From Lunularia cruciata (lineage: Eukaryota > Streptophyta > Marchantiopsida > Lunulariales > Lunulariaceae): a DNA stretch of 64,000 bases. This document shows, piece by piece, positions 6,391 to 49,698 of the stretch (the first letter of the stretch is position 1; the number at the start of each line of letters is the position of its first letter). The translations under genes and the position numbers were made by a program. The notes beneath the pieces were generated by a model that was not told where the DNA came from, ran no database searches, and was given only the letters and a program-made list of their open reading frames with translations. The DNA is taken from assembly GCA_948567375.1 (NCBI GenBank), contig OX419760.1, forward strand, positions 18,724,001 to 18,788,000, written 5' to 3'.

Positions 6391-7530
6391 CCTCAAGCTT
6401 GCACGTACAAGTGCCAAGCTTGGGTCCATAGTACCATCAATGTTTGGGAGGTGGCATGGCGCACAATTGTGCACATGATCCTTCTAAACAACACCATCAC
6501 ATCCTTCTAACACACGGACTCTAGATGGCAAAACCTCACGGACTCTCAAGATAGTGCGGCCTGTCAAAACATCAAGTGTCATTGGTGCTATTTGCTATAG
6601 ATATACATAGTTGCTTGGATGAAATTGACGGATTGAGGGTCTATAACCTCCTCCTCAAATGGTAGCATAGCGTAAAGGATCTCTATGCTAAGCAATTGCC
6701 AAGTTCTCAAAGGCCATTGGCATCACTCTCCAAAAGATCTTTGCCCGTTGAGAACATGCGCTCATCCATATATTGGGGTCATCCAAGTCCAAAACTATAG
6801 TAGCATCTCGACAAATGGTTGTAGGTAAATCTAGATCTCCTCCATAGAGTATAAAGTATGGAGAGAAGGATGCTAAGGAGGCTTGCCGGCTGAACCGATA
6901 GGCCATGGCCAACCGAGGTAACTAGAGATCTCAATCTCCCAAGTGGCCTCTCTGCAAACCATACTTTTGCAACTTTCTCTTCACCGTCTGAACCACTCTC
7001 TCTACTAAGCCATCTACCTCAGGGTGATCTTGGGATGTAGTACAATGATCAATCAAAGCCTTGTCACACAAGACCTAAAACTCCCCCAAGAACTCTGTAC
7101 CTTGATCAATCAAAACCTCAATTGGTGCACCAAAATGACTAGGAACTCGATCCAAGAATGAGTAAGTTGTCCCTTCACAAGACTTGTCCAAGAAGTGCCA
7201 CCAACTCAATCCACTTGGAGAACTAATCCACCATCACCAAAACATACCGATGATGTCTCACAATCAACAGTAAAGGTCTAGCAAAGTCCAAACTCCAATG
7301 GTAACCCAATCCCATGATAGGTAATAGGTGTAATTGTGGCATAGGAACATTGAATGATGCTCTAACTTGGTCACAAACCACATATCTGAACTGCTATACC
7401 TCGGTCTGCATACCACGCCACCAATAATGACTCTAAAGTAAGCTATACGTACGCTTTACTCCAAAATGTCCTAGCTCCTCATGAGCATGACGGACCAACG
7501 GTGGTCTCTAAGATGGAAGTGGTACTACTC
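6391..7530 (-). pseudogene. Integrase of C2 (decayed)
   Basis: Integrase joins element cDNA to host DNA. In order on the minus strand: an H2C2 zinc-binding region (HAHEELGHFGVKRTYSLL, near 7470), the catalytic core start (GLGYHWSLDFARPL, near 7300), the core end (PASLASFSPYFILYGGDL, near 6860), a C-terminal region (GGGYRP, then TLDVLTGRTILRVREV) and CHLPNID leading into the PHD finger. Stops include TGA for CGA near 6655 and TAG for CAG near 6590 and 6485. The part around the second catalytic Asp is frameshifted. C1 keeps the same core more cleanly. Confidence 0.75.
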
Positions 7531-7914
7531 ACACTCTACCATCCTCCCATACATGCAAAAGGTGTCTACCCTCCAACCTGAACCGTCTGGCTTGCTGAAG
7601 GACACAGTCTCTCTCCTTGGCCCCAACTGTGCCACCCACAACACCAATGCAAAGATAGTCCATCAATAAAACATCAACATGAATGTCTCGTTGAACTATA
7701 CCAATATCTTCACTCTTTGGATCTATGACCTCAATAACTCCTCCTATATGCACTGAGAGAGATACCACCAAAGCCTTTGAAAATATACACAAAAAGGTCA
7801 ATGCATGCCAACCTGGCACCATCTCCTCATCTGTCTCACCATGCCAACATGCTCCAGTCTGATCCTGCTAGCTGGGACATGGATTTCTACTATCACAGTT
7901 CATCACCCCAGGTC
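7531..7914 (-). pseudogene. RNase H tail and RNase H-integrase linker of C2
   Basis: This continues the C2 polyprotein interrupted at 25631. It has the end of RNase H (NPCPS, after VNCDSR) and a linker rich in Val and Asp (DYLCIGVVGGTVGAKERD, QARRFRLEGRHLLHVWEDGR) that matches C1 at 21050-21370 closely. Its edge at 7914 is the insertion point of A2. Confidence 0.75.
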
Positions 7915-8600
7915 TATGAGCCAGCCTGTCTTTCACTCAAGATGAACCTTTGATAGCTATTATGGCAGCGCACCATGGACTCAGAAGGCAAGGAACTCCA
8001 ACTCCATCATACTCCTCCAAGGCTAACACTTCAAGACTCAAGACATTGCTCACTAGAGAACTCAATGAGAGAGAGATAGTTGCAAATGAAAGGATGATGA
8101 CTACCTCCTCATCCTATATACTTGTGAAATAGTTAAGTACCAAAATTACTAATTACCGTAGTAACTCAAGTTACTAGACTAAAAGTCAAGTAAAGTCAAA
8201 AAGTAGAAAGGAATATCCATTCACATTTGCCTATTCCTCTAAGCATGTGGTCTTATCTTGACCCAACCACTAAGTCAAGGATTCCTTCACATGGGCTATC
8301 CTTGGACTTAAGAAGAATCCAAAACAAAAAGGCTTGCGGGCCCAAAAGTTCTCAACTCTTTCCTCAAAGCCAAACACCTAGGAATAATACCAAGTCAACA
8401 CACTAAAATCCAAAATAGTGGTGCTCATCTTTTCCACTTCCTCTAAAGTAAGGTCCCCTCTATCTTAGCTATGACTAACTTTAGCTAACCATGACTAATA
8501 TAGAACCATCCTTTATCTCTATATAAATAATATCTCGTAAGTACTTGTAATACCAAGCTAGATATCACAATACCACACACATGCACAAATGGGTGTTACA
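7915..8600 (-). repeat. A2 3' LTR
   Basis: 686 bp matching A1's LTRs. The outer end reads TATGAGCC instead of TGTGAGCC, a G-to-A change in the terminal dinucleotide. The inner end GGGTGTTACA is followed by tttacccccgg, the polypurine tract on the other strand. TATA motif at about 8519-8529 (ctatataaata on the plus strand). Confidence 0.9.
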
Positions 8601-13548: not shown

Positions 13549-13928
13549 TGTCACACCATTTGAAGTTCCGCATCTAGATGCTCGGACACTAGAGTTCCAA
13601 TGATAGCAATTAGAGTTATTCTAGTAGTTTCTCAAAGACTACTTTCCGATGGTAGATTTCGTGTTCAGGGTACTGACTTCACAGTAGGGCCCACAGTCAC
13701 TTTGCACCGTTTGCACCGTTGAGTGTGCCATCAGCGGGACCGTTAGGGTTTTAGTGCTAGCTTGAGTCCAGGAGGTATAGTTTTGAAGTGAGCTCTAGAG
13801 AGCTCACTTCTCTGATGTTGAGCCTTCAAGTTCTTGGCTATGGTGGACAGAGGCCGGCGAGCGTCACCTGGATTCTCTATGCTTGAGTGGGTGTGGCTTG
13901 ACTGTAATCCGTGCCCAATTGTTGGCAG

Positions 13929-13935
13929 TTTATAG
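13929..13935 (+). promoter_or_regulatory. TATA-like site of the family C LTR
   Basis: TTTATAG in GGCAGTTTATAGAGTG. C2 has GGCAATTTATAGTGAG at the matching place (minus strand, near 34435). It lies about 380 bp into the LTR and is the best candidate core promoter. Confidence 0.45.
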
Positions 13936-14599
13936 AGTGACAGATCAAGTACTGATCTGAGGTGAGTTGAGTTGAGAGTGTTAAGCAATCTGATTACATT
14001 AGAGAAGTGAGGTCAGGGGGAAATTGGGTGCAGGAACTGTTGGTGGTATCTCCAAGCTTGGTGGATCGTTGGTAGCTCGATTCAAGTTCAGTGTTTCCCT
14101 AGTGTGCAGAAGCTTGTTCAGTTGATGCAGATTTGGCAGTTAGGCAGATGGTGTGCGGAAGTGCTGGCCAAATTTTGAGCAAAGAAGGAGCAATTTTTGA
14201 GCAATGTTGTGATTTTGAGCTCAGGAGGTGAAGGCAAGACCAATTTGCTGTGATTTGGGCTCAAAAAGTCAAATTGAAGGTGGAGTTGGAGAGCTCTTCT
14301 CATGAAATTGTGATTTGGAAAAACCCATTTTGTCAATTTGGCTCGAGTGGAAAGTTAGCGGGGGATTTGGCGGACAAACATCTTTAGGGTTTACGTCAGA
14401 TTTTGGTTGGGATTTACATCAGATTTTGGCCAGATTTGGAGGAGTTTTGCTAGTTTGGATGACTTTTGCAGATTTGGAGAAGTTTCATCAATTTTGGAGG
14501 AGGTTAGAAATGGCAACAAGAAAGGCCTCATTTGGCTGAATTTTGGCGTTCTGAGGCTTTGAGGCATAGGGCTATGAGAGGCTACAAAGGCCTAGAATG

Positions 14600-14621
14600 G
14601 CCAGCAAGCCAGCTTGCTGGC
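14600..14621. other. Conserved hairpin in the family C LTR (C1)
   Basis: GCCAGCAAG, loop CCAG, CTTGCTGGC: a perfect 9-bp inverted repeat. C2 keeps both arms unchanged with a different loop (33781-33802). It lies downstream of the TATA-like site, so it would be in the leader or R region of the RNA. Confidence 0.7.
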
Positions 14622-14894
14622 GTGAGGCTAGCTAGTTTAGAGTAGATCTTGGTCATTGGTTGGCAAAATCTGCCTTTCCTGCTAGATTGTGCGCAATAAG
14701 GTTTGACCCCTAGATCTCTTGTTCCTAGACTTGTACCCTAGCCAACTGGTCGACCCTCACTTGTTGTCCTAGTGACTGTGCCACTGTTATCTATACACAT
14801 GTAGCTTTGGCTAGGAGAGGCAGTTTGATCCCATTCTTGGTGATCTTGGTAGCTTAGGACTTAGATACGAACTCCTCTTATGTCAAATGCCAAA

Positions 14895-14907
14895 TGGTGG
14901 CAGAGTC
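14895..14907 (+). other. Primer-binding site candidate of C1
   Basis: TGGTGGCAGAGTC, close to the initiator-Met primer site TGGTATCAGAGCC known in many plant elements, with four mismatches. C2 reads TGGTGACAAAGTC. This is a weak match, supported mainly by its position next to the LTR end. Confidence 0.4.
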
Positions 14908-15302
14908 AATCCCATGTTATGTTATGAGATGGAGGGTTTGTTTAGATTTCTTGTGATTGGACTCCCTCCATTCTCTGCTTCCTATTTGTGCACCACGTTT
15001 GTGTGAGGTGCCCTGATTTTTGAGCGTTGGTGCTCTAGTGTGCTCTCGGTGGTGAGGCTGGAGTGATGACCAGTCAGACTACCTTTGTTTCTCTCCGGTG
15101 AGGCAGGAAGTGATGACCTACAGACCGTGAGAGTGCATGTTATGATGGCAAGTTACAGGTTGCCCTTCCCCTAGTGTAGTTATCTTGGTTAGAGTTACAT
15201 TAGTGGGTGGTGCTTAGTTGGTATTGGCATTTGGTGGTGTTGGCACGTGGTGGTGGTGTTGGCACTTAGTGGGGTACTTGCGGTTGCGACTTGCGGTAGC
15301 AG
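14908..15302 (+). other. C1 leader between primer site and gag
   Basis: About 400 bp without a clear reading frame. It is G/T-rich, with repeats of ggtggtgttggca near 15230-15265. The C2 counterpart is 33023-33500. I see nothing else in it. Confidence 0.5.
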
Positions 15303-16855
15303 TTGGTGGTTCAGGTTTGCTGTTGTGGTTACTTTGTCACGACGGAGTTCTTTGGAGAATCTAGAGGAGTTAGCCCTGCAATACGCTGTGGGTTTACTCG
15401 GAGTGGTGCTTGGTATCAGCCTGTATCTCAGGTCCTAGTGAGGGAGGAGATTGACTCTAAGTTGGAGTTTGACACAGGAGCTGATTCAGTTGAGAGTGCA
15501 CTTGGTGTGTCCCCACCGTTGTTGTGGGACATGGACGAGATTTATGGGGCCTCCAAAGGCCCTAGGCGTTACTCTGGTACAGTGGGTACCATTGAGTTGG
15601 ATGACTTCATCTAGGAGTTTGATAGTTGGTGTGATCTATAGCAGATGCGGAACCCGACTTTGTTCACACCCTTCATGGCATGGAAGGGGTTGTTTCAGCA
15701 TCTGGAGGGTCCGCCGATGGATGACTACCATGAGTTCAGGAGAGCTCATTTAGAAGAGATTGAGTTATGGAGACAGTATTGGTCTCCACACTATGTCTCT
15801 ATCACTTCAGGCTCGGTGGCCGGGAGTAGATCGGCTGTACCCACGAGTTCTAGCTCGAGTAGTGTTGGTGGAGCTAGTGGAGGTGCACTAGCTGGAGATA
15901 GTGCTACTAAGAGTGGAGGTACCGCTGCAAGAGGTGGTGTGGTACCGGGGTTTAACCCCATGGTGGAGTTCTTTCTATGTTTGAGGCAGAACTACCAGGG
16001 AGTGCGGACTGACAAGCTGAGGAGCTTGCAGGAGTTCCAACGGAAGGCTGGAGAGAGAGCCTATGCAAGGCATACACTTGCATGAGGCGGCTGATCAGTT
16101 TCACTTAGGGAGTTACTGAGGCCCAGGCAGTCCAGTTTTGGTATGGGATACTAGACAAGGAGTTGCGAGGTAGAGTTCGTGATGCTATGTTGTAGGCTAC
16201 TTTGCCCACTTTGGTAGTAGTCTTTGGTTTGGCTGAGCGTATTGAGCTCAACATGGTGGAGGAGAGAGTGGTGACATCTAGATTTGGTAGGGAGACCTCA
16301 TCCACGGTTGTGACTTCTTCTAGAGTGCAGTAGAGTGCACCACGCCCAGTTGGTTTTTGAGGACAGGGTGGACAACCAAAATCTTGGAGGGCCTAGTGGA
16401 GTTAGACCCTTACCCTCATTTTTGAGTCAGCAGCAGCCAGTGAGTGGTGGTGTTGCTTGTTGGAATTGTGGTGGACCTAACCATAAGAGAGAGTGTACTC
16501 AAGGCAGCGGACCTGATACCTCTGGTGCATCATAGCCAGCATAGAGGCAGTGTGAGCATTGCCACAAATTTGGTCACACTAGTGACCGGTGTTTCAACCT
16601 ACACCCAAAGTTACGGAGTGGTAGGGCTGCTATGGCAGGTAGTAGAGGAGCTCTAGTTCATGGAGGACGAGGTGGTAGAGGTGGTGGTAGAAGATCTACA
16701 CCTAGTAGGGGTGCAGTACCTGCCCTTACTTCGGACACAGCTATGGCTACTCGGATTGAGCAGTTGGAGCAGAGATTGGCTAGTATGGCTATTGCTCAGA
16801 GGAGATCAGATTCAGGTGCTGAGGCTTCCACCATATGCTGGTGATAGAGATGCTT
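15303..16855 (+). pseudogene. Gag of C1 with two zinc knuckles (decayed)
   Basis: N-terminal part with EEIDSKLEFDTGADS and a conserved FTPFMAWKGLFQHLEGP block; a Ser/Gly-rich linker (about 15835-15945); a capsid-like end with LRQNYQGVRTDKLRSLQEF and VQFWYGILDKELRGRV. Then come two knuckles: CWNCGGPNHKREC (near 16460, X3 instead of X4 before the last Cys) and CEHCHKFGHTSDRC (near 16550, normal spacing). A Gly/Arg-rich stretch (GGRGGRGGGRR) and a short coiled segment (RIEQLEQRLASM) follow. Stops at 15612-15614 and 15640-15642 fit CAG-to-TAG changes. C2 helps to confirm the frame. Confidence 0.8.
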
Positions 16856-17034
16856 TGGACTTCAAGTACGGAGTAGCACATGTGGATGCATCTGTAGCAG
16901 TGACTAGGAGTGCAATACGTGCTCCAAAGCCTAGAGGAGCATCAATGGAGTTGGACCCACAGAGAGGAGAGGTTGGGAGACAGGTCAGACTTCCCCAGTC
17001 CTTCACGCTATCTGAGGCATTGTAGACAACATCC

Positions 17035-17870
17035 ATGGTTCCTAGACGTCCCAATGCAGGTGTGGTAGGTGGTGATGGAGTACATGATGGACTACCTGCT
17101 AGTCAGCCACTTGCTACTACACAGATTGAGTCTAGTATGATGTTGGGGGCGGCTCAACTAATTATGCGGCATCCTTTGTTTTCAGCCAGTGACATGTTTA
17201 CATTGGGAGTTGACCCAGCCCCAGTATTCCGGTTGGCTGCCCCGTTGTGTGAGAGTAGGGATGGTGCAGTTCCTACTACTAGAGCAGAGGTGGTTGGTAG
17301 TGGAGCTGACTTGGTTGAGGAGCATGGGATCCGTTCAACGACCAGTGGTTTATGGCAGGCAGCAGCGGCTAGACTAGAGGAGTTGCCATCTAGACCGGCC
17401 TTTGAGAGAGCACGGTTTACACCTGCTGTTGTCCTATTGGATAACCAAAGGGGGATTTTTTGTTTGGTGGGACCTTCAAGGAAAGTCTATACACCACAGA
17501 GAGTCTTGTTAGACTCTGGTGCACAACCCCTTATGTTGGGGAAGGCTGCAGTTGTCGGTCTGCAGTTACGGAAGACCAATGTGGAGAGGTGTCCATTTCA
17601 GATCTAGACATCTCTTGGTGGTGGTTCGACATAGTACATCACACGTGGAGAGCTTGTTGTCCAGGTTCAGCCTGGTCATCCGATTGATAGCTTGGTGGTG
17701 AGAGCTCAGGCTATTGCAACGATAGCCGAGTCATATGATGTGCTGGTTGGGGGAGCAGTGTTATACCCCATGGGTTTCAGCATTGACTATTGGGAGGAGA
17801 CAGCCTCTTATAGACCTAGTTGGCAGTCTGGTGAGGGACGGGTATGTCGCCTACCAGTACGCTTTAGTAG
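17035..17870 (+). pseudogene. Protease of C1
   Basis: Aspartic protease that cuts the polyprotein. The active-site motif is RVLLDSGAQPLMLGKA (17499-17546, DSG). The second half has ESYDVLVGGAVLYPMGFSI near 17725-17785 and a conserved end near 17870. An N-terminal linker of about 130 residues precedes it, with LIMRHPLFSASDMFTLGVD. A frame change occurs near 17607. In C2 the active-site Ser is Cys and the domain is split by a B solo LTR. Confidence 0.7.
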
Positions 17871-19260
17871 TGGCAGTCTTGGCTCACTACAGTCCGGGAC
17901 CATGGCAGCATCAGTTTTAGCTTTTAGTGGTGCAGTTACTTGGCCTGGTGACTTGTTGGAGAGGAACGCCCATGCAGAGGATACTCCAGTACCATAGGAG
18001 ATCACTCGGCTTTGGAGTACGAGTGGGATTGTTCCATCCACCTTGGATGTTCCATTGCGGAGTTCAGAGGAGGCATTGCAGCAGCATGCAGATCAATTGG
18101 TGCAATAGGCTTGGAGTGGAGCCTTCGTACCATCAAGAGATGAGTGTGAGGATGAGCCTCTAGAGGCAATTGCTTTTACACTACTAGATACCACACTCAT
18201 TGCTTGGCAGTATCCAATAGAGGGGATATGCCTATTGGAGTTGTTTGGTGGGATTAGCACCAGACTAGCTACGGTGTTACAGGCGGGTATATGAGTACAG
18301 AGGTACTTATATATAGAGAGAGATCAGACTGCTAGGCAAGTCTCTCTACATCATGTGGCACACTTGGCCTATCGGTATCCGGAGTTATTACCGATGTCAG
18401 CAATTAGAGGTTACCAGAAGGCCCTACCAAGAGACATTTCCTTACTGGGGGCGCATGACCTAAAGAGACATGGGCCTATTCACTTGGTGATTTCTGGATG
18501 GCCATGTTAGGGACATACACGTGTTGGTAGAGGATTGGGTCTTCAGGATCCTTGTTCTGGTGCGTTTTAGGAGATGTTACGGATATTACAACATCTCCAA
18601 GTTCATCAGTCTATTTCTCTAGCTTACCTTCTGGAGAACGTTCCTTTGATGTGTGATTCTCGCACTAGAGTGGTGGCGAGTACACATCAGGTCCATTCTT
18701 GGATGGGACCTACTGTATTGTTAGATACAGCCAGAGTGGGATCACGGGCTCATCGTCTTCGTCTTTGGTGGATGAACCTCTTACTCAGAGAGGTTCTACA
18801 GCGCGCTTATGATGGGATTCAGCGACTTGACCACATCCTGGTTGATGATATCTTGGATGTTGGGCATCAGTCTCAGACAGTGGTAGTGGCTGATAGGTCA
18901 CCTATGGCAGTGGTGAACCTAGTTGGACAGCCTAGAGCTGCATTTCCCACACTCATGAGTTTCCCAAGCTCTCATGCTTTTTGAGAGGGAGGACCTGGAC
19001 TTGTTTGGGACTCACAGTTGCAGCAGTTGGTGGAGCCCAACGCTGATGAGAGAGAGCGGGCAATGGGTTTTCGCACCGGTATTACCACTATTCCAGCAAT
19101 GTCAGAGGCATCCAGGCATCAGGTGTTAGGACAAGCTATGGACTTGAATTGTTTGACTTGGATTGTGAGCCTTGGCTTGGCAGAGTAGCATAGGATGCGC
19201 TTGATAGGCATCACCACTCAGACACTTGTGAGCCCTATGCCTATCGAGACGATTCAGGCA
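17871..19260 (+). pseudogene. DNMT3-like cytosine-5 DNA methyltransferase of C1
   Basis: It lies between protease and RT. C5 methyltransferases move a methyl group from S-adenosylmethionine to cytosine in DNA. The motifs occur in the ordinary order I to X: I, LLELFGGI (18232-18255, cofactor loop); II, RYLYIERD (near 18300); IV, the Pro-Cys with the catalytic Cys at 18505-18507, preceded by GPIHLVISG; VI, LENVP (18631-18645); VIII, GSRAHRLRLWW (near 18738-18770); IX-X, ERERAMGF (near 19050) and VLGQAMDLN (near 19125). AHRxR plus W and the unpermuted order favour DNMT3 over DRM. Stops: TGA near 18292 where C2 has CGA; TAG at 18508-18510, just after the catalytic Cys, where C2 has CAA; TAG at 18108. 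There is no N-terminal reader domain next to it. Dead here. Confidence 0.85.
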
Positions 19261-19740
19261 CATGTTGGGGGCGATGGACCAAGTGGACATGGTATTCTTG
19301 GGGCACATCCAGTAGCTACTAGGGAGAGTGGTCTACTTGGAGTCCATCCAGGTGAGCGTGGGCTACTTGGATTACACCCTTGGTCCACATGGGATGCAGC
19401 CAGAGGACGTGTGGAGCTTGCAGCCAGAGTGGAGGGAGTTTTTTGCATAGAGGTTGGGACCTCTAGTGGTCCGGAGCATGACACTATTGCTCCCAAGAGC
19501 CCAGTGTAGCAATCAGTCAGTACGTCTTCCACTCCTACTACAGTTACAGAGGATACTTGGGAGCCAGATCTTGGACCCAAGCTTACTGGAGAGGAAAGAC
19601 AGAGGGTTTGGAGGTTCTTGAGGAGTCACACGAGTTGTTTTGCCTTCAGTTTGAAGGATTTGGGTGCTCTGAAGGGACCTGGTATATGGATTGAGCTGAC
19701 TAGCGACACACCAATTTTCCGACATCCTTATTAATATAGT
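19261..19740 (+). pseudogene. Methyltransferase-RT linker of C1 with short repeats
   Basis: A polyprotein spacer of about 160 codons. It begins with three copies of a short G-[IL]-L-G-x-H-P unit (19291-19311, 19331-19351, 19361-19381), repeated likewise in C2 (about 27160-27270). It ends with TGEERQRVWRFLRSH, which leads into RT. Function unknown; possibly a flexible joint or a protease cleavage region. Confidence 0.6.
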
Positions 19741-19743
19741 GAT

Positions 19744-20577
19744 ATGGAGAGGACATTGATTCAGAGCCGGAGTAGTGATCTTTTTGAGGCTGGTTTGGTG
19801 GAGATTTCACATGTAGAGTATGCATCAGCGACAGTGATGCCAGCCAAGAAAGATATGCATGGCAACTATACAGATAGGCGGATGTGTGGAGATTACCGTC
19901 CTATCAACCGACATACCAAGGCTAATCGGTATGACATACCTACACCAGAGGAGATTTTTGATGCAATTGGGCATGCAAAGGTCTTCAGTACTTTGGATCT
20001 TCAAGCGGAATATCATCAGTTGCCAATCAAGGAGGAGGATAAGTCCAAGATAACATTTTGGGCTATTGATCCTCACGGCAAGGATGTGTTATATCAGTGG
20101 AGGTTCTTACCATTTGGGTTAAAGAATGCTCTTGCTGAGTTCCAGAGGGTCATGGATAGGATCCTAGCTGGATTGGATTTTGCTCATTGCTATATTGATG
20201 ACATTTTGGTTTATAGCACTACTGTAGAGGAGCATGAGAGACAGTTGTTGGAGGTGTTTGAGAGGTTGAGATCTCATGGACTCAAACTACATCTTGGGAA
20301 GTGTAGGTTCTTCCACGAGCAGGTTGAGTATTTGGGTCACACTATCTACCCCGGAGGACTTGGTGTTCAGCATACCAAGGTAGAGGCTATTGCACGTATT
20401 CCTTGGCCTACGGATGTGAGTAGAGTGTGAGCATTCCTTGGGTTGGCGAACTTCTATTGCCGCTATGTTAGAGGATTTAGTGCCATTGCCAAGGCCTTGA
20501 CAAAGCTGACCAAGCTTACATAGGAGTGGTGTTGGGGAGATGAGCAGGAGAGAGCTTTTGTAGAGCTCAAGGAGAGG
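19744..20577 (+). pseudogene. Reverse transcriptase of C1
   Basis: Ty3/gypsy RT. Visible: RRMCGDYRPINRHT, the first catalytic Asp in FSTLDLQAEYHQL, LPFGLKNALAEFQRVMDRIL, CYIDDILVYST (the YIDD catalytic pair, near 20190) and EYLGHTIYPGGL. A TGA at 20428-20430 precedes AFLGLANFY; C2 has CAA at that codon. A TAG follows at about 20521. The catalytic residues are intact, so only the stops mark it as dead. Confidence 0.85.
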
Positions 20578-21126
20578 TTGACATCTGCTCCTATTTTGAG
20601 GAGACTGATCAAGGGACGACCATTTCAGGTTCACACTGATTGGAGTATGTTGGGGCTTGGAGCGGTGCTCACCCAACATGATGATGAGGAGAAGGAGTTT
20701 GTGATGGCCTATGCTAGTTGCTCCAACAATTCAGCGGAGGCGGAGTATAGTTCATATGAGGGAGAGTGCTTGGCAGCAGTTTGGGCACTAGCACATTTCC
20801 AATGTTACCTATTTGGTAACCCCTTCACTCTCATCACTAATCATCAGCCGCTGAAGTGGTTGATGGAGTCCGACAAGCTTTCAAGGAAGCTTGCACAATG
20901 GGCTCTGATTTTACAGGAGTATGATTTCACGGTTGTTCATAGACCTGGAGTGGTGAACCGTGATGTAGATGGGTTGAGTAGAAACCCATGTCCCAGCCAG
21001 CAGGATCAGACCGGAGCACGTTGGCATGGTGAGACAAATGAGGAGATGGTGCCAGGTTGGCATGCATCGGCCTTTCTGTGTATATTTGTAGAGGCTTTGG
21101 TGGTATCTCTCTCAGCGCATACATGA
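20578..21126 (+). pseudogene. RNase H of C1
   Basis: It follows RT directly. Conserved pieces are VHTDWSMLGLGAVLTQ (first catalytic Asp), SSYEGECLAAVWAL (catalytic Glu) and LITNHQPLKWL (Asn in place of the Asp usual in ITDH, a likely G-to-A change). DGLSRNPCPS marks the end and a linker toward integrase follows. The frame is open for 182 codons, the best-preserved stretch of C1. Confidence 0.85.
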
Positions 21127-22234
21127 GGAGTTATTGAGGTCACAGATCCAGAGAGTGAAGATATTGGTACAGTTCAGCAAGACATTCATGATGATGTCTT
21201 AGTGATGGACTATCTTTGCACAGGTGTTGTGGGTGGCACAGTTGGGGCCAAGGAGAGAGACCGTGTTCTTCAGCAAGCCAGGCGGTTCAGATTGGAGGGT
21301 AGACACCTTTTGCGTGTATGGGAGGATGGTAGAGTGCGAGTAGTACCACTTCCATCACAGAGACCACAGTTGGTCTGACATGCTCATGAGGAGTTAGGAC
21401 ATTTTGGAGTAAAGCGTACGTATAGCTTACTCCAGAGTCATTATTGGTGGCGCCGTATGCAGACCAAGGTATAGCAGTTTATTGCCAGATGTGTGGTTTG
21501 TGATTGAGTTAGAGCATCATTCAATGCTCTTATGCCACAGTTACACCCATTACCTATCATGGGATTGGGTTACCGTTGGAGTTTGGACTTCGCCGGACCT
21601 TTACCGCTGATTGTGAGACATCATCGGTATGTTTTGGTGATGGTGGAGCACTTCTCCAAGTGGATTGAGTTAGTGGCACTTCCTGACAAGTCTAGTGAAG
21701 GGACAGCTTACTCGTTCCTGGATCGAGTTCTTAGTCATTTTGGTGCACCAGCTGAGGTTTTGACTGATCAGGGTACAGAGTTCTTGGGGGAGTTTCAAGT
21801 CTTGTGTGACAAGGCTTTGATTGATCATCGTACTACATCCCGAGATCACCTTGAGGTAGATGGCTTAGCAGAGAGAGTGGTTCAGACGGTGAAGAGAGGA
21901 TTGCAAAAGTATGGTTTGCAAAGAGGCCACTTGGGAGATTGGGATCTCCAGTTACCTTGGTTGGCCATGGGCTATTGGTTCAGCCGGCAAGCCTCCTTAG
22001 CATCCTTCTCTCCATAATTTCTACTCTATGGACAAGATCTAGATTTACCTGCAGTCATTTGTCAAGATGTTACTGTAGTTTTGGACTTGGATGACCCCAA
22101 TGTATGGATGATCGCATGTTCTCAGCGAGCAGAGATCTTTTGGAGAGTGATGCCGTGGCCTTTGAGAACTTGGCGATTGCTCAACATAGAGATACTTTAC
22201 GCTATGCTACCATTCAAGGAGGAAGTTATAGACC
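21127..22234 (+). pseudogene. Integrase of C1 (C-terminus cut by A5)
   Basis: H2C2 region HAHEELGHFGVKRTYSLL (near 21380) with CVVCD (near 21490). The catalytic core has all three acids: LDFAGP (near 21585), LTDQGTEFLGEF (near 21760) and DGLAERVVQT (near 21865). It ends at GGSYRP at 22234, where the A5 LTR starts; the CHLP region and PHD finger seen in C2 are lost. Stops lie near 21127, 21378, 21472, 21506 and 22016. Confidence 0.8.
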
Positions 22235-24938: not shown

Positions 24939-25630
24939 TGTGAGCCGGCCTGTCTCTCACTCAGGATGAACCTTTGATGGCTATTATGGTAGCACACCAT
25001 GGACTAAGAAGGCAAGGAACCCTAACTCCATCATACTCCTTCGAGGCTAACACTTCAAGACTCAAGACATTGCTCACTAGAGAACTCAATGAGAGAGAGA
25101 TAGTTGCAAATGAAAGGATGATGACTACCTCCTCACCCCTTGTTTATATACTTGTGAAATAGTTATGTACCAAAGTTACTAATTACCGTAGTAACTCAAG
25201 TTACTAGACTAAAAGTCAAGTAAAGTCAAAAAGTAGAAAGGAATATCCATTCACATGGGCATATTCCCCTAAGCATGTGGTCTTATCTTGACCCAACCAC
25301 TAAGTCAAGGATTCCTTCACATGGGCTATCCTTGGACTTAAGAAGAATCCAAAATAAAAAGGTTTGCGGGCCCAAGAGTTCTCGACTCTTTCTTCAAAGC
25401 CAAACACCTAGGAATAATACCAAATCAACACAATAAAATCCAAAATAGTGGTGCTTATCTTTTCCACTTCCTCTAAAGTAAGGTCCCCTCTATCTTAGCT
25501 ATGACTAACTTAAGCTAACCATGACTAATATAGAACAATCCTTTATCTCTATATAAATAATATCTTGTAAGTACTTGTAATACTAAGCTAAATATCACAA
25601 TACCACACACATGCACAAATGGGTGTTATA
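24939..25630 (-). repeat. A2 5' LTR
   Basis: 692 bp from TGTGAGCC to GGGTGTTATA; the outer CA is changed to TA. Next to it C2 resumes with ggtct. TATA motif on the minus strand near 25549-25559. Confidence 0.9.
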
Positions 25631-26880
25631 GGTCTATTAACAACCATGAAATCATACTCCTATAAAATCAGAGCCCATTATGCAAGCTTCCTTGAAAGCT
25701 TGTCGGACTCCATCAACCACTTTATTTGCTGATGATCAGTGATGAGAGTGAAGGGGTTACCAAATAGGTAAATCGGAAATGTGCTACTGCCCAAATTGTT
25801 GCCAAGCACTCTCCCTCATATGAACTATACTTTGCCTCCACTAAATTGTTGGAGCGACTAGCATAGGCCACCACAAACTGTTCCCCTCATCATCATGCTG
25901 GGTGAGCACCGCTCCAAGCCCAAACATACTCCAATCAATATGAACCTGAAACGGTCATCCTCTAATTGGTCTCCTCAAAATAGGAGCAGATGTCAACCTT
26001 TCCTTGAGCTCTACAAAAGCTCTCTCTTGCTCATCTCCCCAACACCAATCTTGTGTAAGCTTGGCACTAAATCGTCTAACATAGCGGCGATAGAAGTTTG
26101 CCAACCCAAGGAATGCTTGCACTCTGCTCACATCTACAGGCCAAGGAATACGTGCAATAATCCCCACCTTGGTTTACTGAACACCAAGTCCTCTAGGGTA
26201 GATAGTGTGCCCAAATACTCAACCTGCTTGTGGAAGAACCTACACTTCCCAGGAAGTAATTTGAGTCCATGAGATCTCAACCTTTCAAACACCTCCAACA
26301 ACTATCTCTCATGCTTCTCCACAATAGTGCTATCGACCAAAATATCATCAATATAGCATCGAGCAAAATCCAATCCAGCTAGGATCCTATCCATGACCCT
26401 TTGGAACTCAATAGGAGCATTCTTTAACCCAAATAGTAAGAACCTCCACTGATATAACACATCCTTGCCATGAGAATCAATAGCCCAAAATGTTGTCTTG
26501 GACTTATCCTCCTCCTTATTGGCAATTGATGATATCCCACTCAAAGATCCAAAGTACTGAAGACCTTTGCATGCCCAATTGCATCAAAAATCTCCTCTAG
26601 TGTAGGCATGGCATACCAATCAGCCCTAGTCTGTCAATTGATAAGACGGTAATCTCCACACATCCGTCTATCTGTGTAGTTGCCATGCATATCTTTCTTG
26701 GTTGGCATCACTGTTGCTGATGCATACTCTCCATGTGAAATCTCCACCAAACCAGCCTCAAAAAGGTTACTACTTAGGCTCTGAATCAATGTCCTCTCCA
26801 TCCCACTATATTGATAAGGACATCGGAAAACTGGTGTATTGCTAGTCAGCTCAATCTATATACTAGGTCCTTTTGGAGCA
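25631..26880 (-). pseudogene. Reverse transcriptase-RNase H of C2 (interrupted by A2)
   Basis: Matches C1 RT-RNase H. Visible on the minus strand: RRMCGDYR (near 26665), KVFSTLDL followed by TGA near 26555, FQRVMDRILAGLDFARCYID then DILVDST (26400-26330) and VQAFLGLANFYRRYVRRFS (26120-26060). CAA at 26117-26119 is the codon that is TGA in C1. RNase H is cut at 25631, inside the VVNRP region, by A2, and resumes at 7914. Confidence 0.8.
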
Positions 26881-27259
26881 CCCAAATCCTTCATACTGAA
26901 GGCAAAATAACTCATGTGGCTCCTCAAGAACCCTCCAAAACCCTCCGTCTTTCCTCTCCAGTAAGCTTGGGTCCAAGATCTGGCTCCCAAGTATCCTTTG
27001 TAAGTATAGTAGGAGTGGAAGACGTACTAACTGGCTGCTACATTGGGCCCTTGGGAGCAATAGTGTCATGCCCCCGCCCATTAGAGGTCCCAACCACTAT
27101 GTGAAAAACTCCTTCCACTCTGGTTGCAAGCTCCACACGTCCTCTAGCTGCATCCCAAGTGGACCAAGGGTGTAATCCAAGTAGCCCACGCTCACTTGGA
27201 TGGACTCCAAGAAGACCACTCTCCCTAGTAGCTACTGGATGTGTCCCAAGAATACCATG

Positions 27260-28640
27260 TCATCTTGGTCCATCGCCTCCAGCATGTGCTTGAATCGTCT
27301 CAATAGGCACAGGGCTCACAAGTGACCAAGTGGTGACGCCTATCCAACACATCCTATGCTGCTCTACCAAGCCAAGGCTCACAATCCAGGTCAAACAGTT
27401 CAGGTCCATACCCTGACCTAACACCTGATGCCTAGATGCCTTTGACACTACTGGAATAACGGTAATATTGGTATGAAAACCCATCGCCCGCTCTCTCTCA
27501 TCAGCATTGGGCTCCACCAATTGCTATAACTGTGAGTCCCAAACAAGTCCTGGTCTTCCCTCTCAAAAAGCATGAGAGCTTGGGAAACTCATGAGTGTAG
27601 GAAATGCGGCTCTAGGCTGTCCAACTAGGTTAACCACTGCCATAGGTGACCTATCAGCCACTACCACTGTCTAAGACTAACGCCCAACATCCAAGATATC
27701 ATCAACAAGGATGTGGTCAAGTCATTGAATCCCATCATAAGCACAATGTAGAACCTCTCTGGGTAAGAGGTTCATCTACCAAAGACAAAGACGATGAGCC
27801 CGTGATCCCACTCTAGCTGCATCTAACAATACAGCAAGTCCTATCCAAGAATGGACCTGATGTGTACTCGCTACCACTCTGGTGTGAGAATCACCCATCA
27901 AAGGAACATTCTCCAAAAGGTAAGGTGGAGAAATGGACTGATGAACCTAGAGATGTTGTAGTATCCGTAACATCTCCTAAACACACCAGAATGAAGATCC
28001 TGAAGACCCAAACATCTACCAACATGTGTATGTCCTTGACATGGCCATCCAGAAATTGCCAAGTGAATAGGCCCATGTCTCTCCAGATCATGCACCCCCA
28101 ATAAGGAAATGTCTGTTGGTAGGGCCTTCTGGTAACCTCTAACTGTTGACATCGATAATAACTCCAGATATTGATAGGCCAAGTGTGCCACATGATGTAG
28201 AGAGACTCACCTAGTAGTCTCATTTCTCTCTATATACAAGTACCTCTGTACTCGTATACCTGCATGTAATACCGCAGCTAGTCCGATGTTGATCCCACCA
28301 AACAACTCCAATAGGCATATCCCCTCTATTGGATACTGCCAAGCAATGAGTGTGGTATCTAGAGGTGTCAAAGTAAGTGACTCTGGCGGCTCATCCTCAC
28401 ACTCATCTCTTGATGGTACGAAGGCTCCACTCCAAGCTTGCTGCATCAACTGATCTGCATGTTGCTGCAATGTCTCCTCTGAACTCCACAATGGAACATC
28501 CAAGGTGGATGGAACAATCCCACTCATACTCCAAAGCCGAGTGATCTCCTCTGGTATTGGAGTATCCTCTGCATGGGTGTTCCCCTCCAACAAGTCACCA
28601 GGCCAAGTAACTGCACCACTGAAAGCTAAAACTAATGTTG
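27260..28640 (-). pseudogene. DNMT3-like cytosine-5 DNA methyltransferase of C2
   Basis: Second copy of the methyltransferase, better preserved in its first half. Motif I, LLELFGGINIGLAAVL (about 28312-28265); RVQRYLYIERN (near 28245); motif IV, ISGWPCQGHT with an intact catalytic Cys-Gln (28050-28036); LENVPLMGD (near 27915); VLLDAARVGSRAHRL (near 27830-27790), where the next residue, Arg in C1, is Cys; ERERAMGF (near 27500) and VLGQGMDLN (near 27425). An upstream region of about 100 residues (AVTWPGDLLEGN, LDVPLWSSEETLQQHAD) is shared with C1 and has no family I recognise. Stops occur after NETTR, after HSGVF and in the target-recognition part. The order PR-methyltransferase-RT is the same as in C1. 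Confidence 0.85.
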
Positions 28641-28894
28641 CCATGGTCTCGGACCGTAGTGAGCCAAGACTGCCACTACTGAAGCGTACTGGTAGACGAC
28701 ATACCCGTCCCTCACCAGACTACCAACCAGGTCTATAGGAGGTTGTCTTCTCCTAATAGTCAGTGCTGAAACCCATGGGGTATAACACTGCTCCCTCAAC
28801 TAGCGCATCATATGACTCAAACTATTGTCGCAATGACCTGAGCTCTCACCACCGAGTTATCAGTCGGATGACCAGGCTGAACATGGACAACAAG
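28641..28894 (-). pseudogene. Protease second half of C2
   Basis: Carries VVHVQPGHPTDN and VVRAQVIATIV, then GRVCRLPVRFSSG, as in C1 17640-17880. It is separated from the active-site half at 30845-31213 by the B solo LTR. Stops are frequent. Confidence 0.65.
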
Positions 28895-30788
28895 TGTGGT
28901 ACCCACATTTTTCATTTTGGACAAGTTTAGAAGAAGAAATGCCTTGCTGAAACCAAATTGAAACCAAATGGAGAAGAAATGAGTGGAAACTTGTGTTTTG
29001 ATCAGACCTACGGAAGTCAATTTCATGTAAGAGGAAGAAGGATTTGGACTGGATCCAACCCGAAGAAGCTTACTTCGTGTCAGAGAAGGGAAAAACTCGG
29101 ATCAAACGTTAAGGAGTGCAAACCCGAAGGAGAAATATAAGTTACAAGTCAGGATTTTTGCGGGGGCCATATCTCAATGCACACAAGTCCAAATCAAGCG
29201 TGATATATCTCGTTGGAAGCGTCTCGTTCAGGGCTTTCCATTGCCACCAAAATCGCAAAGTTTAGAGGTTTGTAGAAGAAGTTACAAGCATTTGAAGTTT
29301 TTGGAGTAAGTGTACTTCGGGTCAATGTGACTTCGGATTTCGTACTTCGTACTTCGGGTTTACATGACTTCGGGTCTAAAGACTTCGCCTCAAGATGAAG
29401 ATGACTAAATCAGAGGTAGCCGGACCTCGGAGTGCAGTGAAGGTGTTTTTGGGAGTTTTGCCAGAGGGATCAGAGGAAGTTAAGAGTAGAGAAAGAAGAT
29501 AGTTATGATACACATGACTTCAATTTCAGTTCTAATTGAAGATGGAACCTGAATTGAAGGAGAAGTAGCAGTAGTGAATAAACCCGAAATGCAAGATTAG
29601 ACTGTAAGTGTCTTTGGGTTAGTGACATGAGTGATTAGGAGAAAATGGATTACAAATTGAAGGTGTAGATAGTATATTCATGGTTTCAATTACAATTCTT
29701 GATGATGACACAATAGAATTAGTAAAGGAATTGATAGTAGTTAAACCCAAGGTAAGAGAGATAGGAGTGCAGGTGTCTTCGGATTTGACATTTGACACTT
29801 TAGAGAAGAGTGGGTTGGGAGATAGAGATTTAGAAGGCTTAACTATGATAGGAATTTCATATCAGGAAGGAGAAATGTTAGAATTAGTGGAGGAAGTAGG
29901 AGATGTGAAACCCGAGGACAGAGTAGTAGGAAGTAAGATTACTTCGGGTTCGGGTTTGAAAGCCGAGGAAGAAGTAGACATCGGATCGGATTAGTAACCA
30001 ATTTGAGATTTGAAGGGGCAGATATGAAAGGTTGCATTGTCATTTCGGATCTGCAGGTTAGAACAGTTTATGTAGAAACGGTATAGTTGTTAGAATTGTC
30101 GATTGCTTCACTATTTAAGAGTGACATTTGCAGGAAATTGTTGTTCAGTGCTCATTATTTCTAAGAATAGATAAAGCGAAGTGCTGTGAAGCAGTGCTCG
30201 TCGCTTGAGCTTGATTTCGAGTATCAACTTTGCAATTGTGTTTGTGAATGTTTGGAGAAATTCGAAGTGCAGTCAGAGTGCTTGTTGGATGTTGGATTCC
30301 ACAGCCTTGATCTTCATTCTGTGTGTTTGATCCTGAGTGAAGTGCAATCGAAGCAATGCCTTGACAGATCTGAGAGGAATTGTAGTGTTGGTAGTATTCT
30401 GCATTTGTGAGTGCAGTGCGAAGTTGATGTGAAGCAATTTTGATCGAGGAAGTTGTGCCTTCAGTGGAAGGGTGGAACACAATTCTGAGGTGAAGTCGTT
30501 TTGCAGTGAAGTGCCATTTTCGGGAGAGCCTAAATCATCACAAATCAAGATTGTTTGGAAATAATTGATGGAGTTGTGATTTTGGAGTGTGAATTTGTGA
30601 CAAGACTGCGAGTCAGTGCTTGTTACTCTCTTCTGGGTGTGGTTTCTACCTGAGAGACTAAAGAAGAACTCAAGAAGAACTGAAATTGTTACTTTGCTTT
30701 GTATTTGGACATTTCTGACTCGTATCTCTGCGGGAACAAACTTTACTTACCCGATTACCGCAAAAGTGATATTTGCCGGGTTGTCACA
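28895..30788 (+). mobile_element. Short family B solo LTR in C2
   Basis: 1,894 bp from TGTGGTACCCACATTTTTC to GCCGGGTTGTCACA, flanked by the perfect 5-bp duplication acaag (28890-28894 and 30789-30793). It has no internal sequence, so it is a solo LTR made by recombination between two LTRs. It is half the length of B2 or B6 because most of the LTR-encoded frame is absent. TATTTAAG at 30112-30119 is the second TATA-like site. Confidence 0.95.
29680..29994 (+). pseudogene. Remnant of the LTR-encoded frame in the short B LTR
   Basis: Only the C-terminal part remains: KVREIGVQVSSDLTFDTLEK, then VKPEDRVVGSKITSGSGLKA and an acidic end. It is still open for 104 codons. Its upstream neighbour is unrelated to the globular and coiled-coil parts in B2 or B6. 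Confidence 0.6.
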
Positions 30789-30844
30789 ACAAGCCTCCCA
30801 CGTGTGATGTACTATGTCAAACCACCACAAAGAGATGTCTAGAT

Positions 30845-31230
30845 CTAAAATGGACACCTCTCCACATTGGTCTTTTGTAACTCTAGACCAACAATTGCAG
30901 CCTTCCCCAACATAAGGAGCTGTGCACCACAGTCTAACAAGACTCTCTGTGGTGTATAGACCTTCCCTAAAAGTCCAACCAAACGGAAAATCCCCCTTTG
31001 GTTATCCAATAGGACAACACCATGTGTAAACCACGCTCTCTCAAAGACTAGTCTAGCTGGCAACTCCTCCAATCTAGCCATTGTTGCCAGCCACAAACCA
31101 CTAGTCGCTGAACAGATCCCATGCTCCTCAACCAAGTCAGCTCCACTACCAACCACCTCTGCTCTAGTAGTAGGAACTGCATCATCTCTACTCTCACAAA
31201 GTGTGGTATCCAACTAAAACACTGGGACTA
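30845..31230 (-). pseudogene. Protease first half of C2
   Basis: Active-site motif RVLLDCGAQLLMLGKA: DCG instead of the DSG of C1, so the catalytic Asp remains and the next residue is changed. The upstream segment GSGADLVEEHGICS matches C1. It is interrupted downstream by the solo LTR at 30788. Confidence 0.75.
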
Positions 31231-31439
31231 GGTCAACTCCCAATGTAAACATGTCACAGGTTGAAAACAAAGGATGCCGCATAATCAGTTGAGCCGCCCC
31301 CAACATCATGCTAGACATAGTCTATGTAGTAGTAGGTAGCTAAGTAGCATGTAATCTATCATACACTCCATCACCACCTACCACACCTGCACTGAGACGT
31401 CTAAGAACCATGGATGTCGTCTGCAATGCCTCAGATAGC

Positions 31440-33022
31440 ATGAAAGACTAGGGAAGTTTGACCTGTCTTCCAACCTCTCCTCTTTGTGGATCGAACTCCA
31501 TTGATGCTCCTCTAGGCTTTGGATCACGTACTACACTCCTAGTCACTGCTGTAGATGCATCCACTTGTGCTGCTCCACACATGAAGTCCAAAGCATCTCT
31601 ATCCCCAGCATATGAGGTAGAAGCCTCAGCACCCAAATCTGATCTCCTCTGAGCAATAGCCATACTAGACAATCTCTACTCCAATTGCTCAATCTGAGTA
31701 GCTATAGCTGTGTCAGAAGTAAGGGCAGGTACTGCATCCCTACTAGGTGTAGATCCTCTACCACCACCTCTACTACCTTTTCCTCCATGAACTGGAGCTC
31801 CTCTACTACCTGCCATAGCAGCCCTACCACTCCGTAACTCTGGGTGTAGGTCAAAGCACCGGTCACTAGTGTGACCAAATCTGTGGCAATGCTCACACTA
31901 CCTCTGTGCTAGTTGTGATGCACCCAAGGTATCAAGTCCACTGCCTTGAGTACACTCTCTCCGATGGTGAGGTCCACCACAAGTCCAACAAGCAACACCA
32001 CCACTCACTGGCTGCTGCTGACCCAAAAATGAAGGTAAGGATCTAACTCCACTAGGCCCTCCACTTGCTCCATAGGATTTGGGCTCTCCACCCTATCCTT
32101 GAAAACCAACTGGGCATGGTGCACTTTGCTGCACTCTAGAAGAAGTCACAGTCGTAGATGAGGTCTCCCTCCCAAATCTAGATGTCACTACTCTCTCCTC
32201 CACCATGTTGAGCTCAATACGCTCAACCAAACCAAAGACCACTGCTAAAGTGGGCAAAGTAGCCTGCAACAATGTAGCATCATGAACTCTATGTCGTAAT
32301 TCCCTATCTAATATCCCATACCAAAACTAGACTGCTTGGGCCTTAGTAACTCCCTAAGTAAAACTAATCAACCGCCTCATGCGAGTGTATGCCTCGTGTA
32401 AGCTCTCTCGAGCCTTCCGCTAGAACTCTTGCAAGCTCCTCAACTTGTCAGTCCGCACCCCTTGGTAGTTCTGCCTTCAACATTGGAAGAACTCCACCAT
32501 GAGGTTAAATCCCGGTACCACACCACCTCCTATAGCGGTACCTCCACTCATAGTAGCACTATCTCCAGTGAGTGCACCTCCACAAGCTCCACCAATACTA
32601 CTTGAGCTAGAACTCGTAGGTACAGCCAATCTACTCTTGGCCACCAAACCTGAAGTGATAGAGATATAGTTCAGAGACCAGTACTGTCTCCATAACTCAA
32701 TCTCCTCCAAATGAGCTCTCCTGAACTCATGGTAGTTGTCCCTTAGTGGACCCTCCAAATGCTGAAACAACCTCTTCCATGCCATGAAGGGTGTAAACAA
32801 AATCAAGTTTTGCATCTGCTGCAGATCACACCAACTATCAAATTCATGGATGAAGTCATCCAACTCAATGGTACTCACTATACCAGAGTAACATTTTGGG
32901 CCTTTGGAGGCCCCATAAATCTCGCCCATGTCCCACAACAATATTGCGGACACACCAAGTACACTCTTAACTAAATCAGCTCCTGTGTCAAACTCCAACT
33001 CAAAGTCAATCTCCTCCCTCAC
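31440..33022 (-). pseudogene. Gag of C2 with two zinc knuckles (decayed)
   Basis: Matches C1 gag and is open from 33022 to 32477 (EEIDFELEFDTGADL, FTPFMAWKRLFQHLEGP, EFRRAHLEEIELWRQYW). Further down are NYQGVRTDKLRSLQEF, then knuckles CWTCGGPHHRREC and CEHCHRFGHTSDRC, and the RSDLGAEAST end. It keeps His and Gln codons at sites where C1 has TAG. Stops lie near 32475, 32420, 32330 and 31885. Confidence 0.8.
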
Positions 33023-33516
33023 TGGGACTTGAGATACAAGCTGATACCGAGTGGCACTCTAAGTAAACCCACTATGTATTGTAGGGCTATCTCCTCTGGA
33101 ATCCCCAAAGAACTCTGTCGTGACAAAGTAACTGCAACCGTAACCAGAACCACCAACTGCAACCGCAAGTACCCCACCAAGTGCCAATACCAACTAAGCA
33201 CCACCACTAATGTAACTCTAATCAAGATAACTACACTATGGGAAAGGGAAACCTATAACTTGACATCATAATATGCACTCTCACGGTCTGCAAGTCATCA
33301 CTTCCTGCCTCACCGGAGAGAAACAAAGGTAGTCTGACTAGTCATCACTCTAGCCTCACTACCAAAGCACCAAAGCTCAAAAGTCAGGGCATCGCACACA
33401 AACGTGGTGCACAAACAAGAAGTAGAGAATGGAGGGGGTCCAATCACAAGAAATCTAAACAAAAACCCTCCATCTCATAAAATAACACGAGATTGACTTT
33501 GTCACCATTTGGCATT
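33023..33516 (-). other. C2 leader and primer-site region
   Basis: Counterpart of C1 14886-15300. The minus strand has TGGTGACAAAGTC near 33506-33494 as a degraded initiator-Met-like primer site. No convincing reading frame. Confidence 0.5.
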
Positions 33517-34821
33517 TGACATAAGAGAAGTTTGTATCTAAGTCTTAAGCTACCAGGACCACCAAGAATGGGATCAAACTGCCTCTCCTAGCCAAAGCTA
33601 CATGTGTGTAGATAACAGTGGCACAATCACTAAGACAACAAGTGAGGGTGGACCAGTTGGCTAGGGCACCAATCTAGGAGCAAGAGATCTAGGGGTCAAA
33701 CCCTATTGCGCACAATCTAACACAAAAGGTAGATTTTGCCAACCAATGACCAAGATCTACTCTAAACTAGCTAGCCTCACGCCAGCAAGCTGACTTGCTG
33801 GCCCTTCTAGGCCTTCATAGCCTCTAAACGCCAAATGAGGCCTTTCTTCTTGCCACTTCAAACCTCCTCCAAAATTGGCAAAACTTTTCCAAACTTGCAA
33901 AAGTACTCCAACCTAGCGAAAGTCTTGCAAATCTGGCCAAACATCAAAACTCCTCCAAATCTGGCCAAAATCTGACATAAACCCTAAAGTTGGTTTTCCA
34001 TCAAATCCCCCGTTAACTTTCCACTCGAGCCAAATTTACAACACCAAATCACAAATTCATGAGAATAGCTTCCCAACTCCACTTTTAATTTGACTTTCTA
34101 AGCCCAACTCGTAACAAATTATTCCTGCCTTCACTTCTTGAGCTCAAAATCACAACCATTGCTCAAAATTTGCTCCTTCTTTGCTCAAAAATTAGCCAGC
34201 GCTTCCGCACACCATTTGCCTTACTGCCAAATCTACATCAATTGAATGAGCTTTTGCACACTAGGAAAAAGCTAAACTTGAATCAAGCTGCTAACAATCA
34301 TTAAGCTTGGAGATACCACAAACACTCAAAGTTCCTACACCCGATTTCCCCCTTACTTCACTTCTTTGATGTAATCATATTGTTTACCACTCTCAACTCA
34401 ACTCAACTCAAATCAGTACTTGATCCGTCTCACTATAAATTGCCAACAACTGGGCATTGATTACAGTCAAGCCACACCCACTCAAGCATAGAGAATCTAG
34501 GTGATGCTCGCCGGCCTCTATCCACCATAGCCGGGAACTCAAAAGCTCAACATCAGAGAAGTGAGCTCTTTGGAGCTGCACTTTGAAAGTATACCCCCTA
34601 GGCTTGAGCTAGGTCTGAACCCTAATGGTCCCACTGATAGCACACTCAATGGTGCAAATGGTGCAAAGTGACGGTGGGCTCCACCGTGAAGTCAATACCC
34701 CAAACACAAAATCTGACCATCGGAAAGTAGTCTCTGAGAAACTGCTGGAATAACTCTAACTACTATCACTACAACTCCAATGTCTAGGCAATCTAGATGC
34801 GACACTACAAATGGTGTGACA
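33517..34821 (-). repeat. C2 5' LTR
   Basis: About 1.3 kb; its outer end, ggtgtgaca on the plus strand, ends at 34821 and is followed at once by A3 sequence (agaggaagaagaagg). It matches C1's LTR over its whole length, with many transitions. The 9-bp hairpin arms at 33781-33789 and 33794-33802 are unchanged. Confidence 0.8.
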
Positions 34822-44582: not shown

Positions 44583-44630
44583 TTTACCCCCGGACTAAGT
44601 TTTCACTTTGTCCTCAAAGTGAAGGTCTCT

Positions 44631-45743: not shown

Positions 45744-45749
45744 TGCTCT

Positions 45750-49457: not shown

Positions 49458-49698
49458 CTTAACCCCTCACTATCTTTCTTTTCTCTCAAATTTTTTTTTT
49501 TTTTTTTCTTTTCTTTTCTCTCACTCTATTACTAATAGAGTATATACATGACCAACACCATCTGAGAATAATCCACTCTAGGGAACACAAAAGGTTCAGG
49601 TTGCTCCAAGATTTCTATAGCAACATCAAATCCTAAAGTGCATATTAATCTAACTCTCATGGATAGTTTATCCATAAGTTGAAAGATTATCTCCATCA

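Follow-up and report, generated by a model that had tools for sequence, protein, structure and literature searches.

Why should a Ty3/gypsy retrotransposon carry a cytosine-5 DNA methyltransferase (DNMT), of what type is the enzyme, and at which step of the element's life would it act? These questions arise from a 64,000-nt stretch of the genome of the liverwort Lunularia cruciata (GCA_948567375.1, OX419760.1:18,724,001-18,788,000, equivalent to C10:18724001-18788000 of the 566-Mb genome), hereafter the window, for which a preliminary description had proposed a DNMT3-like domain within a gypsy polyprotein. It had also named a precedent in charophyte algae, and such a precedent exists in KnitGypsy-Dnmt3 of Klebsormidium nitens, the closest described element (PMC5890265). 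The kind of element is already known from charophytes and dinoflagellates. The new aspects are its occurrence in a land plant at such abundance, the Gag-side DNMT, a PHD finger, and evidence on integration. The conserved TAG codon that places the DNMT in the gag-protease frame, the PHD finger, and A-coding-B-A-B repeats combined with DDE-type insertion are additions to the preliminary description.

The window contains two copies of the element. Copy 1 lies on the forward strand at 13549..22234, as delimited by homology with 19 fetched copies, and its 3' end is truncated, with foreign transposon sequence from 22235 on. Comparison with the fetched copies identified the 448-bp 5' terminal repeat A at 13549..13996, which stands here without part B, known from 3' ends. 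The sequence after repeat A (13997 onward) does not begin with TGG. Homologous open frames in L013 and L015 served to place the gag region with zinc knuckles (approximately 15260..17390); the gag frame is broken in copy 1, and the knuckles were read by eye in L015. Neither the gag region nor the gag-protease frame of L013 matched any Pfam family. The protease (PR) is marked by the active-site DSG at 17512..17520 in the translated motif LLDSGA; it had a Pfam match in relatives but none in the Lunularia copies. Downstream follow, on the same strand, the DNMT domain (18220..19185), an in-frame stop (19507..19515), reverse transcriptase (RT) with YIDD plus RNase H (RH; approximately 19735..20985), and the H2C2 and DDE (rve) integrase (IN; approximately 21350..22100), the last two regions being assigned from the translation and from Pfam matches in other copies. 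The PHD finger after the integrase is lost in copy 1 and present in other copies. The proposed gypsy polyprotein is therefore supported by Pfam for RT, RNase H, H2C2 and rve and by motifs for PR and the zinc knuckle, both of which Pfam recognised in relatives, and the DNMT does lie between the LLDSGA protease and the YIDD reverse transcriptase.

Copy 2 lies on the reverse strand in three parts: the 5' part with gag and the protease side (30786..34822, repeat A at 34372-34821), the middle with DNMT (about 27247-28445), linker and RT (25630..28894), and the 3' part (6638..7919), which is separated by a nested insertion. With four stops in the DNMT domain of copy 1 and eight in that of copy 2, both are dead, decayed pseudogenes in this domain. 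We rejected a 474-bp piece at 22235-22708 as the LTR of the element, because elsewhere the element continues beyond that point and the piece sits at other places. The window also holds element D (43891-51724), a gypsy element of the classical LTR type with LTRs 99.86% identical over 692 bp; no DNMT motif was seen in its long gag-pol frame (45750-49466, reverse strand).

The six DNMT motifs of copy 1 all lie in one forward frame: LLELFGGI (motif I, 18232-18255), GWPC (IV, 18496-18507), LLENVP (VI, 18628-18645), GSRAHRLR (VIII, 18739-18762), and the IX/X motifs ERERAMGF (19048-19071) and LGQAMDLN (19126-19149). The same order had been claimed for copy 2. This holds for the four motifs LELFGG (28294-28311), GWPC (28039-28050), ENVP (27902-27913) and ERERAMG (27479-27499) on its reverse strand, while AHRLR and GQAMD were not found there. 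A Pfam search of the window domain, with stops written as X, gave no match, and the check by a DNA_methylase profile succeeded only with less decayed copies, three open frames of which exceeded the PF00145 cut-off (E 3.8e-8, 5.3e-9 and 3.3e-8). Across the open frames of Lunularia copies, Pfam reported PF00145, RVT_1, RNase H, H2C2, rve and PHD. In a PDB search, a single sequence found DNMT3A first (2.5e-9), and a profile of the clade found DNMT3A best (6.5e-23), followed by DRM (2.9e-12), HaeIII (2e-9) and DNMT2 (1.4e-5), with no DNMT1 or CMT among 56 rows at 0.001. The profile matches of the less decayed copies and of the clade indicate that the methyltransferase assignment is not due to chance. 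An AlphaFold2 model of the relative P0054, which is 72% identical to the Lunularia copy L015, reached a pLDDT of 88.9; its best PDB match was DNMT3A-3L (E 7.1e-19, target TM 0.83), and the best 50 rows were all DNMT3 entries. Judged by profile and modelled fold, the domain appears closest to DNMT3 rather than to DNMT1, CMT, DRM or DNMT2. The unpermuted motif order, as read from the translation, is likewise consistent with DNMT3, unlike the rearranged order of DRM, so that the DNMT3-like, unpermuted type proposed at the outset is upheld. The element enzymes share motif order and best profile and fold match with animal DNMT3A/B and plant DNMT3, but have GWPCQ where the latter have GSPCN. Neither ADD nor PWWP appeared in the Pfam results for the Lunularia frames scanned.

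We surveyed the genome to see how widely the domain is distributed, comparing single copies of the element rather than a consensus. A PF00145 profile search yielded 2161 candidates and 123 scored matches, from which 24 loci were inspected: 19 are copies of the DNMT-bearing element, and five (L001-L004 and L019) resemble host methyltransferase genes. With motifs judged by eye, the latter include DNMT3 (L001, L004) and DRM (L002, L019), so the host possesses DNMT3 and DRM genes of its own besides the DNMT of the element. A probe for RT gave 5838 first-look candidates, of which 40 were scored. As a sample blind to the domain, 20 of the 39 other RT matches were chosen without regard to DNMT, and the kilobase upstream of each was fetched. 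At least 900 of the 1023 bp of the DNMT domain were present at an identical offset in 18 of them, and the other two retained 897 bp and 423 bp. The DNMT domain is a family-wide feature of the element, and the absence from most other copies that the preliminary description had named as a counter-indication was not seen. With thousands of candidate matches in the genome, the family is very abundant. Long open frames also survive: with a related protein as the query, 12 of the 81 matches listed have PR and DNMT in stop-free frames of 1402-1448 codons, six of them of exactly 1428 codons. The family was apparently active recently. When the two A repeats within each of 13 elements were compared and the results pooled, untidy alignments among them, 88 differences were counted in 2465 aligned bases, which makes this activity recent only in a relative sense.

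Protein searches for relatives returned Marchantia, Riccia, Calypogeia, Sphagnum, Closterium and Dunaliella as well as many environmental proteins; none of the matches listed bore the name of K. nitens, and a scan of viral contigs found no relatives. The relatives fall into two domain orders, type I with gag and PR followed by DNMT-RT-RH-IN, and type II with RT-RH-DNMT-IN-PHD, which rules out a single fixed DNMT position across the clade. In a tree that set the retrotransposon DNMTs against just two outgroup rows, both of them DNMT3 and one partial, all retrotransposon rows fall together in a clade separate from the host and human enzymes (100/99). The L001 exons cluster with human DNMT3A. Rows from Marchantia and Calypogeia join the Lunularia copies in one group (100/100), and the type II rows all fall within one 27-row clade (100/99) that includes rows of unknown order. 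For 12 elements a DNMT tree was matched with an RT tree; the main groups coincide, and the split between the two types has support of 81/96 and 100/100, respectively. An RT tree bearing an outgroup had a single outgroup row, weakly placed. The PHD finger at the integrase C-terminus (L009:8477-8611, PF00628, E 1.8e-11) occurs also in L023 and in type II relatives. One relative showed a Tudor match below the cut-off.

How such elements integrate can be addressed from their termini. The element starts 5' with the 448-bp repeat A (TGTCACGCC) and ends 3' in B-A-B, terminating with CGCACGACA. The fetched copies therefore have the layout A-coding-B-A-B; the domain order is shared with Ty3/gypsy LTR elements, but the two identical terminal LTRs of the latter are lacking. 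Inserted copies begin with TG and end with CA, and 10 of the 12 with both ends seen are flanked by 4-bp target duplications; the exceptions are L025 and L017. In the five copies displayed, a G-rich tract precedes the first B. The joint B|A reads CAGCTG or a point-mutated form of it and is constant in length in 16/16 copies, with 473 exact matches in the genome. The joint A|B deviates in 3 of 15 copies. It has 1634 genome matches, which include solo repeats, if present; the first 100 listed (all on C1) contain 10 deviating ones. Eight of those ten have a single additional base (G three times, A three times, T twice) and two have ACATC. ACATC is the sequence that follows GATT at the 5' A copy in L009, L012 and L028, and among the fetched copies L025 alone shows this joint. 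The TG...CA ends and 4-bp duplications, together with a variable A|B joint beside a B|A joint of fixed length, suggest that the DDE integrase inserts an end-joined circular cDNA rather than a linear copy. Retroviral two-LTR circles are generally regarded as dead ends, and no circle was seen here. An alternative explanation is accordingly that linear cDNA is integrated and that some other process, for instance a modified strand transfer or the formation of head-to-tail concatemers, creates A-coding-B-A-B. However, this explanation sits poorly with the A|B joint, where either the post-GATT letters of the 5' A or one additional base occurs, a pattern to be expected of ligated cDNA ends, and with the constant length of B|A. 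We consider linear integration rather doubtful for these reasons, and the circular substrate seems to be the better reading.

The position of the in-frame stop bears on how the enzyme is made. At 19507..19515 copy 1 reads TAG CAA TCA, which fits the readthrough motif UAG-CAR-YYA. TAG was found between DNMT and RT in all 21 copies (19 fetched and two from the window), 19 of them with the CAR-YYA context, and at 646 of 663 genome-wide sites with exact flanks; four of the first 100 sites listed differ (TAA twice, CAG and TTG). Past the TAG, the pol frame continues in phase, and the first Met follows 48 codons downstream in 15 of the 19 copies with a matched site. The in-frame TAG-CAR-YYA separates gag-PR-DNMT from RT-RH-IN, and the DNMT is therefore predicted at the Gag level; apparently it is made there, upstream of a leaky stop. 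Conservation of TAG among near-identical copies would also be expected from common descent, and the codon might instead be an old founder mutation without programmed readthrough, pol being expressed by re-initiation or from a second RNA. An older, decayed copy (81% identical) indeed has GTG CAA CCA at the stop site, and 5 of the 31 long type I relatives continue into RT. In the other 26, however, the frame ends 13-166 residues past the DNMT without RT, although some of these ends are perhaps contig edges. The Marchantia proteins P0003 and P0005, which are gene models rather than DNA, end 36 residues after HPWS[LS]WD, as compared with the window stop 37 residues after HPWSTWD. Together with the retained CAR-YYA context, these shared ends make a founder mutation unlikely in our judgement, and a leaky stop behind a Gag-level DNMT is the reading that we carry forward.

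We propose the following life cycle for this DNMT-bearing gypsy family, an explanation combining Gag-level DNMT, a circular integration substrate and pre-methylation of cDNA, which we hold as a whole to be probable without being secure. Ribosomes would mostly halt at the TAG, so that the DNMT is synthesised together with Gag and PR and enters the particle in large amounts; occasional readthrough would provide RT-RH-IN-PHD. If reverse transcription starts at a primer site behind A and runs as far as the G-rich tract that precedes B, it could produce a linear cDNA with B+A repeats, whose ends would be ligated into a two-LTR circle. The integrase would then cut the joined molecule at the palindromic CAGCTG (B|A) and insert the cut molecule. 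The packaged DNMT may methylate the double-stranded cDNA or the circle before or at integration, and the new copy would arrive pre-methylated, which could serve as a self-mark, as protection or as self-limitation. The role in camouflage or copy-number control suggested in the preliminary description is still hypothetical. A single capture of the DNMT could have taken place in a common ancestor of the broad clade now found in algae and bryophytes, with a later relocation within pol.

Selection tests were carried out within this genome, other species being represented by proteins alone. Pairwise dN/dS was 0.33 for PR, 0.43 for DNMT, 0.71 for the linker, 0.31 for RT, 0.53 for RNase H and 0.43 for IN. 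Among shared variants, an omega-like ratio against a context-matched null was 0.78 for DNMT, 0.48 for RT, 0.52 for IN, 0.64 for PR, 0.67 for RNase H and 1.80 for the linker; the shared DNMT variants include 14 stops, and DNMT singletons gave 1.13. Changes private to the window copy gave 0.58 for DNMT and 0.66 for RT. The dN/dS check thus shows pairwise constraint on the DNMT, but the shared variants and singletons, the latter looking neutral, indicate that constraint within the genome is mild. CpG observed/expected was 0.44-0.49 in eight copies and 0.36 in copy 1, as compared with 0.33 in the window and 0.14 in the DNMT-less element D. No CpG depletion of the family beyond that of the window or element D was found, so there is no sign of long-term self-methylation.

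The weak constraint and the lack of CpG depletion are what one would expect if the DNMT were a passenger, or a nucleocapsid-like binder of nucleic acid without catalytic use, persisting by chance in an active lineage. Element D, which by its LTRs also inserted recently, manages without a DNMT, and motif IV is GWEC instead of GWPC in P0030, P0046, P0047, P0048 and P0052, relatives that include both types. Conservation of the presumed catalytic motifs speaks against this view. Among 40 Lunularia copies (L042 was dropped for coverage), GWPC was found in 38 and ENV in 37. Among 27 rows of relatives, 32-76% identical to the first row, EN of motif VI never varies, and at least 90% retain the cysteine of motif IV; all three residues are invariant in an 8-row alignment. 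The concordance of DNMT and RT trees in their main groups, from liverworts to algae, also argues against a passenger, which we judge to be unlikely. Action in trans on host chromatin or competing elements instead of the element's own cDNA would profit from the large amount of enzyme predicted by Gag-level synthesis, and effects on the host methylome are discussed by de Mendoza et al. (PMC5890265), but fusion within the gag-PR frame would be expected to place the enzyme in the particle and no sign of a free nuclear form was seen here, making this the least probable alternative. We therefore retain pre-methylation of cDNA as the preferred explanation.

The Lunularia element can be compared with several known systems. 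As far as the available text of PMC5890265 describes it, without the place of the DNMT in Pol, KnitGypsy-Dnmt3 combines Gypsy domains and an unpermuted Dnmt3-type domain in Pol with the A-coding-B-A-B structure of DIRS (Figure 4 legend) and a host in the streptophyte line; our comparison relies on this description rather than on K. nitens sequence. The present element differs in its probable land-plant host and thousands of candidate matches, in the DNMT preceding a conserved TAG in the gag-PR frame, in the PHD finger that ends the integrase, and in the documented 4-bp duplication and variable A|B joint. SymbioDIRS-Dnmt3 of Symbiodinium also has a polyprotein DNMT3, split repeats and a pre-integration cDNA, but with a tyrosine recombinase and a DIRS RT instead of a DDE integrase and a gypsy-type RT (PMC5890265). 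In yeast, the SymbioDIRS DNMTs methylate CG; the K. nitens DNMT produced no methylation, a result that its authors call inconclusive (PMC5890265). DIRS/PAT elements share the A-coding-B-A-B split direct repeats, but use a tyrosine recombinase without target duplication, unlike the rve integrase and 4-bp duplication here; no tyrosine recombinase was found in the Lunularia open frames scanned with Pfam. Methyltransferases are found repeatedly in split-repeat elements: adenine methylases in DIRS, and further enzymes in SymbioDIRS, KnitGypsy and this clade. What unites these cases might be methylation of the circle, with a DDE integrase here inserting circular cDNA via the palindrome inside the repeat and a Gag-level DNMT serving that circle. 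We offer this generalisation tentatively, as a possibility somewhat short of an even prospect.

A 2025 survey mentions LTR Copia and DIRS elements that carry DNMT3 (PMC12344493), and methyltransferase-bearing transposons have been called absent from land plants such as tracheophytes in the available part of PMC6338049. A literature search covering titles, abstract openings and open-licence text found no liverwort or moss element of this kind, and the available portions of PMC6453930, PMC9033089 and PMC12477816 contain nothing on such bryophyte elements. The relatives in Marchantia, Riccia, Calypogeia and Sphagnum extend methyltransferase-bearing retrotransposons to land plants. A Gag-side DNMT before a readthrough-type stop, a PHD reader and the indications of a circular substrate make the idea of self-methylation concretely testable, both in the timing of enzyme action and in the form of DNA acted upon. 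The Lunularia genome also contains a second, decayed PR-DNMT lineage (G000 C11:48964782-48966194 and C1:64965349-64966818), whose two loci share 51% and 45% identity, respectively, with a protein of Calypogeia fissa. At the other end of the range, P0167 from Dunaliella salina is an RNase H-DNMT fragment in a chlorophyte, which implies that the clade extends beyond streptophytes.
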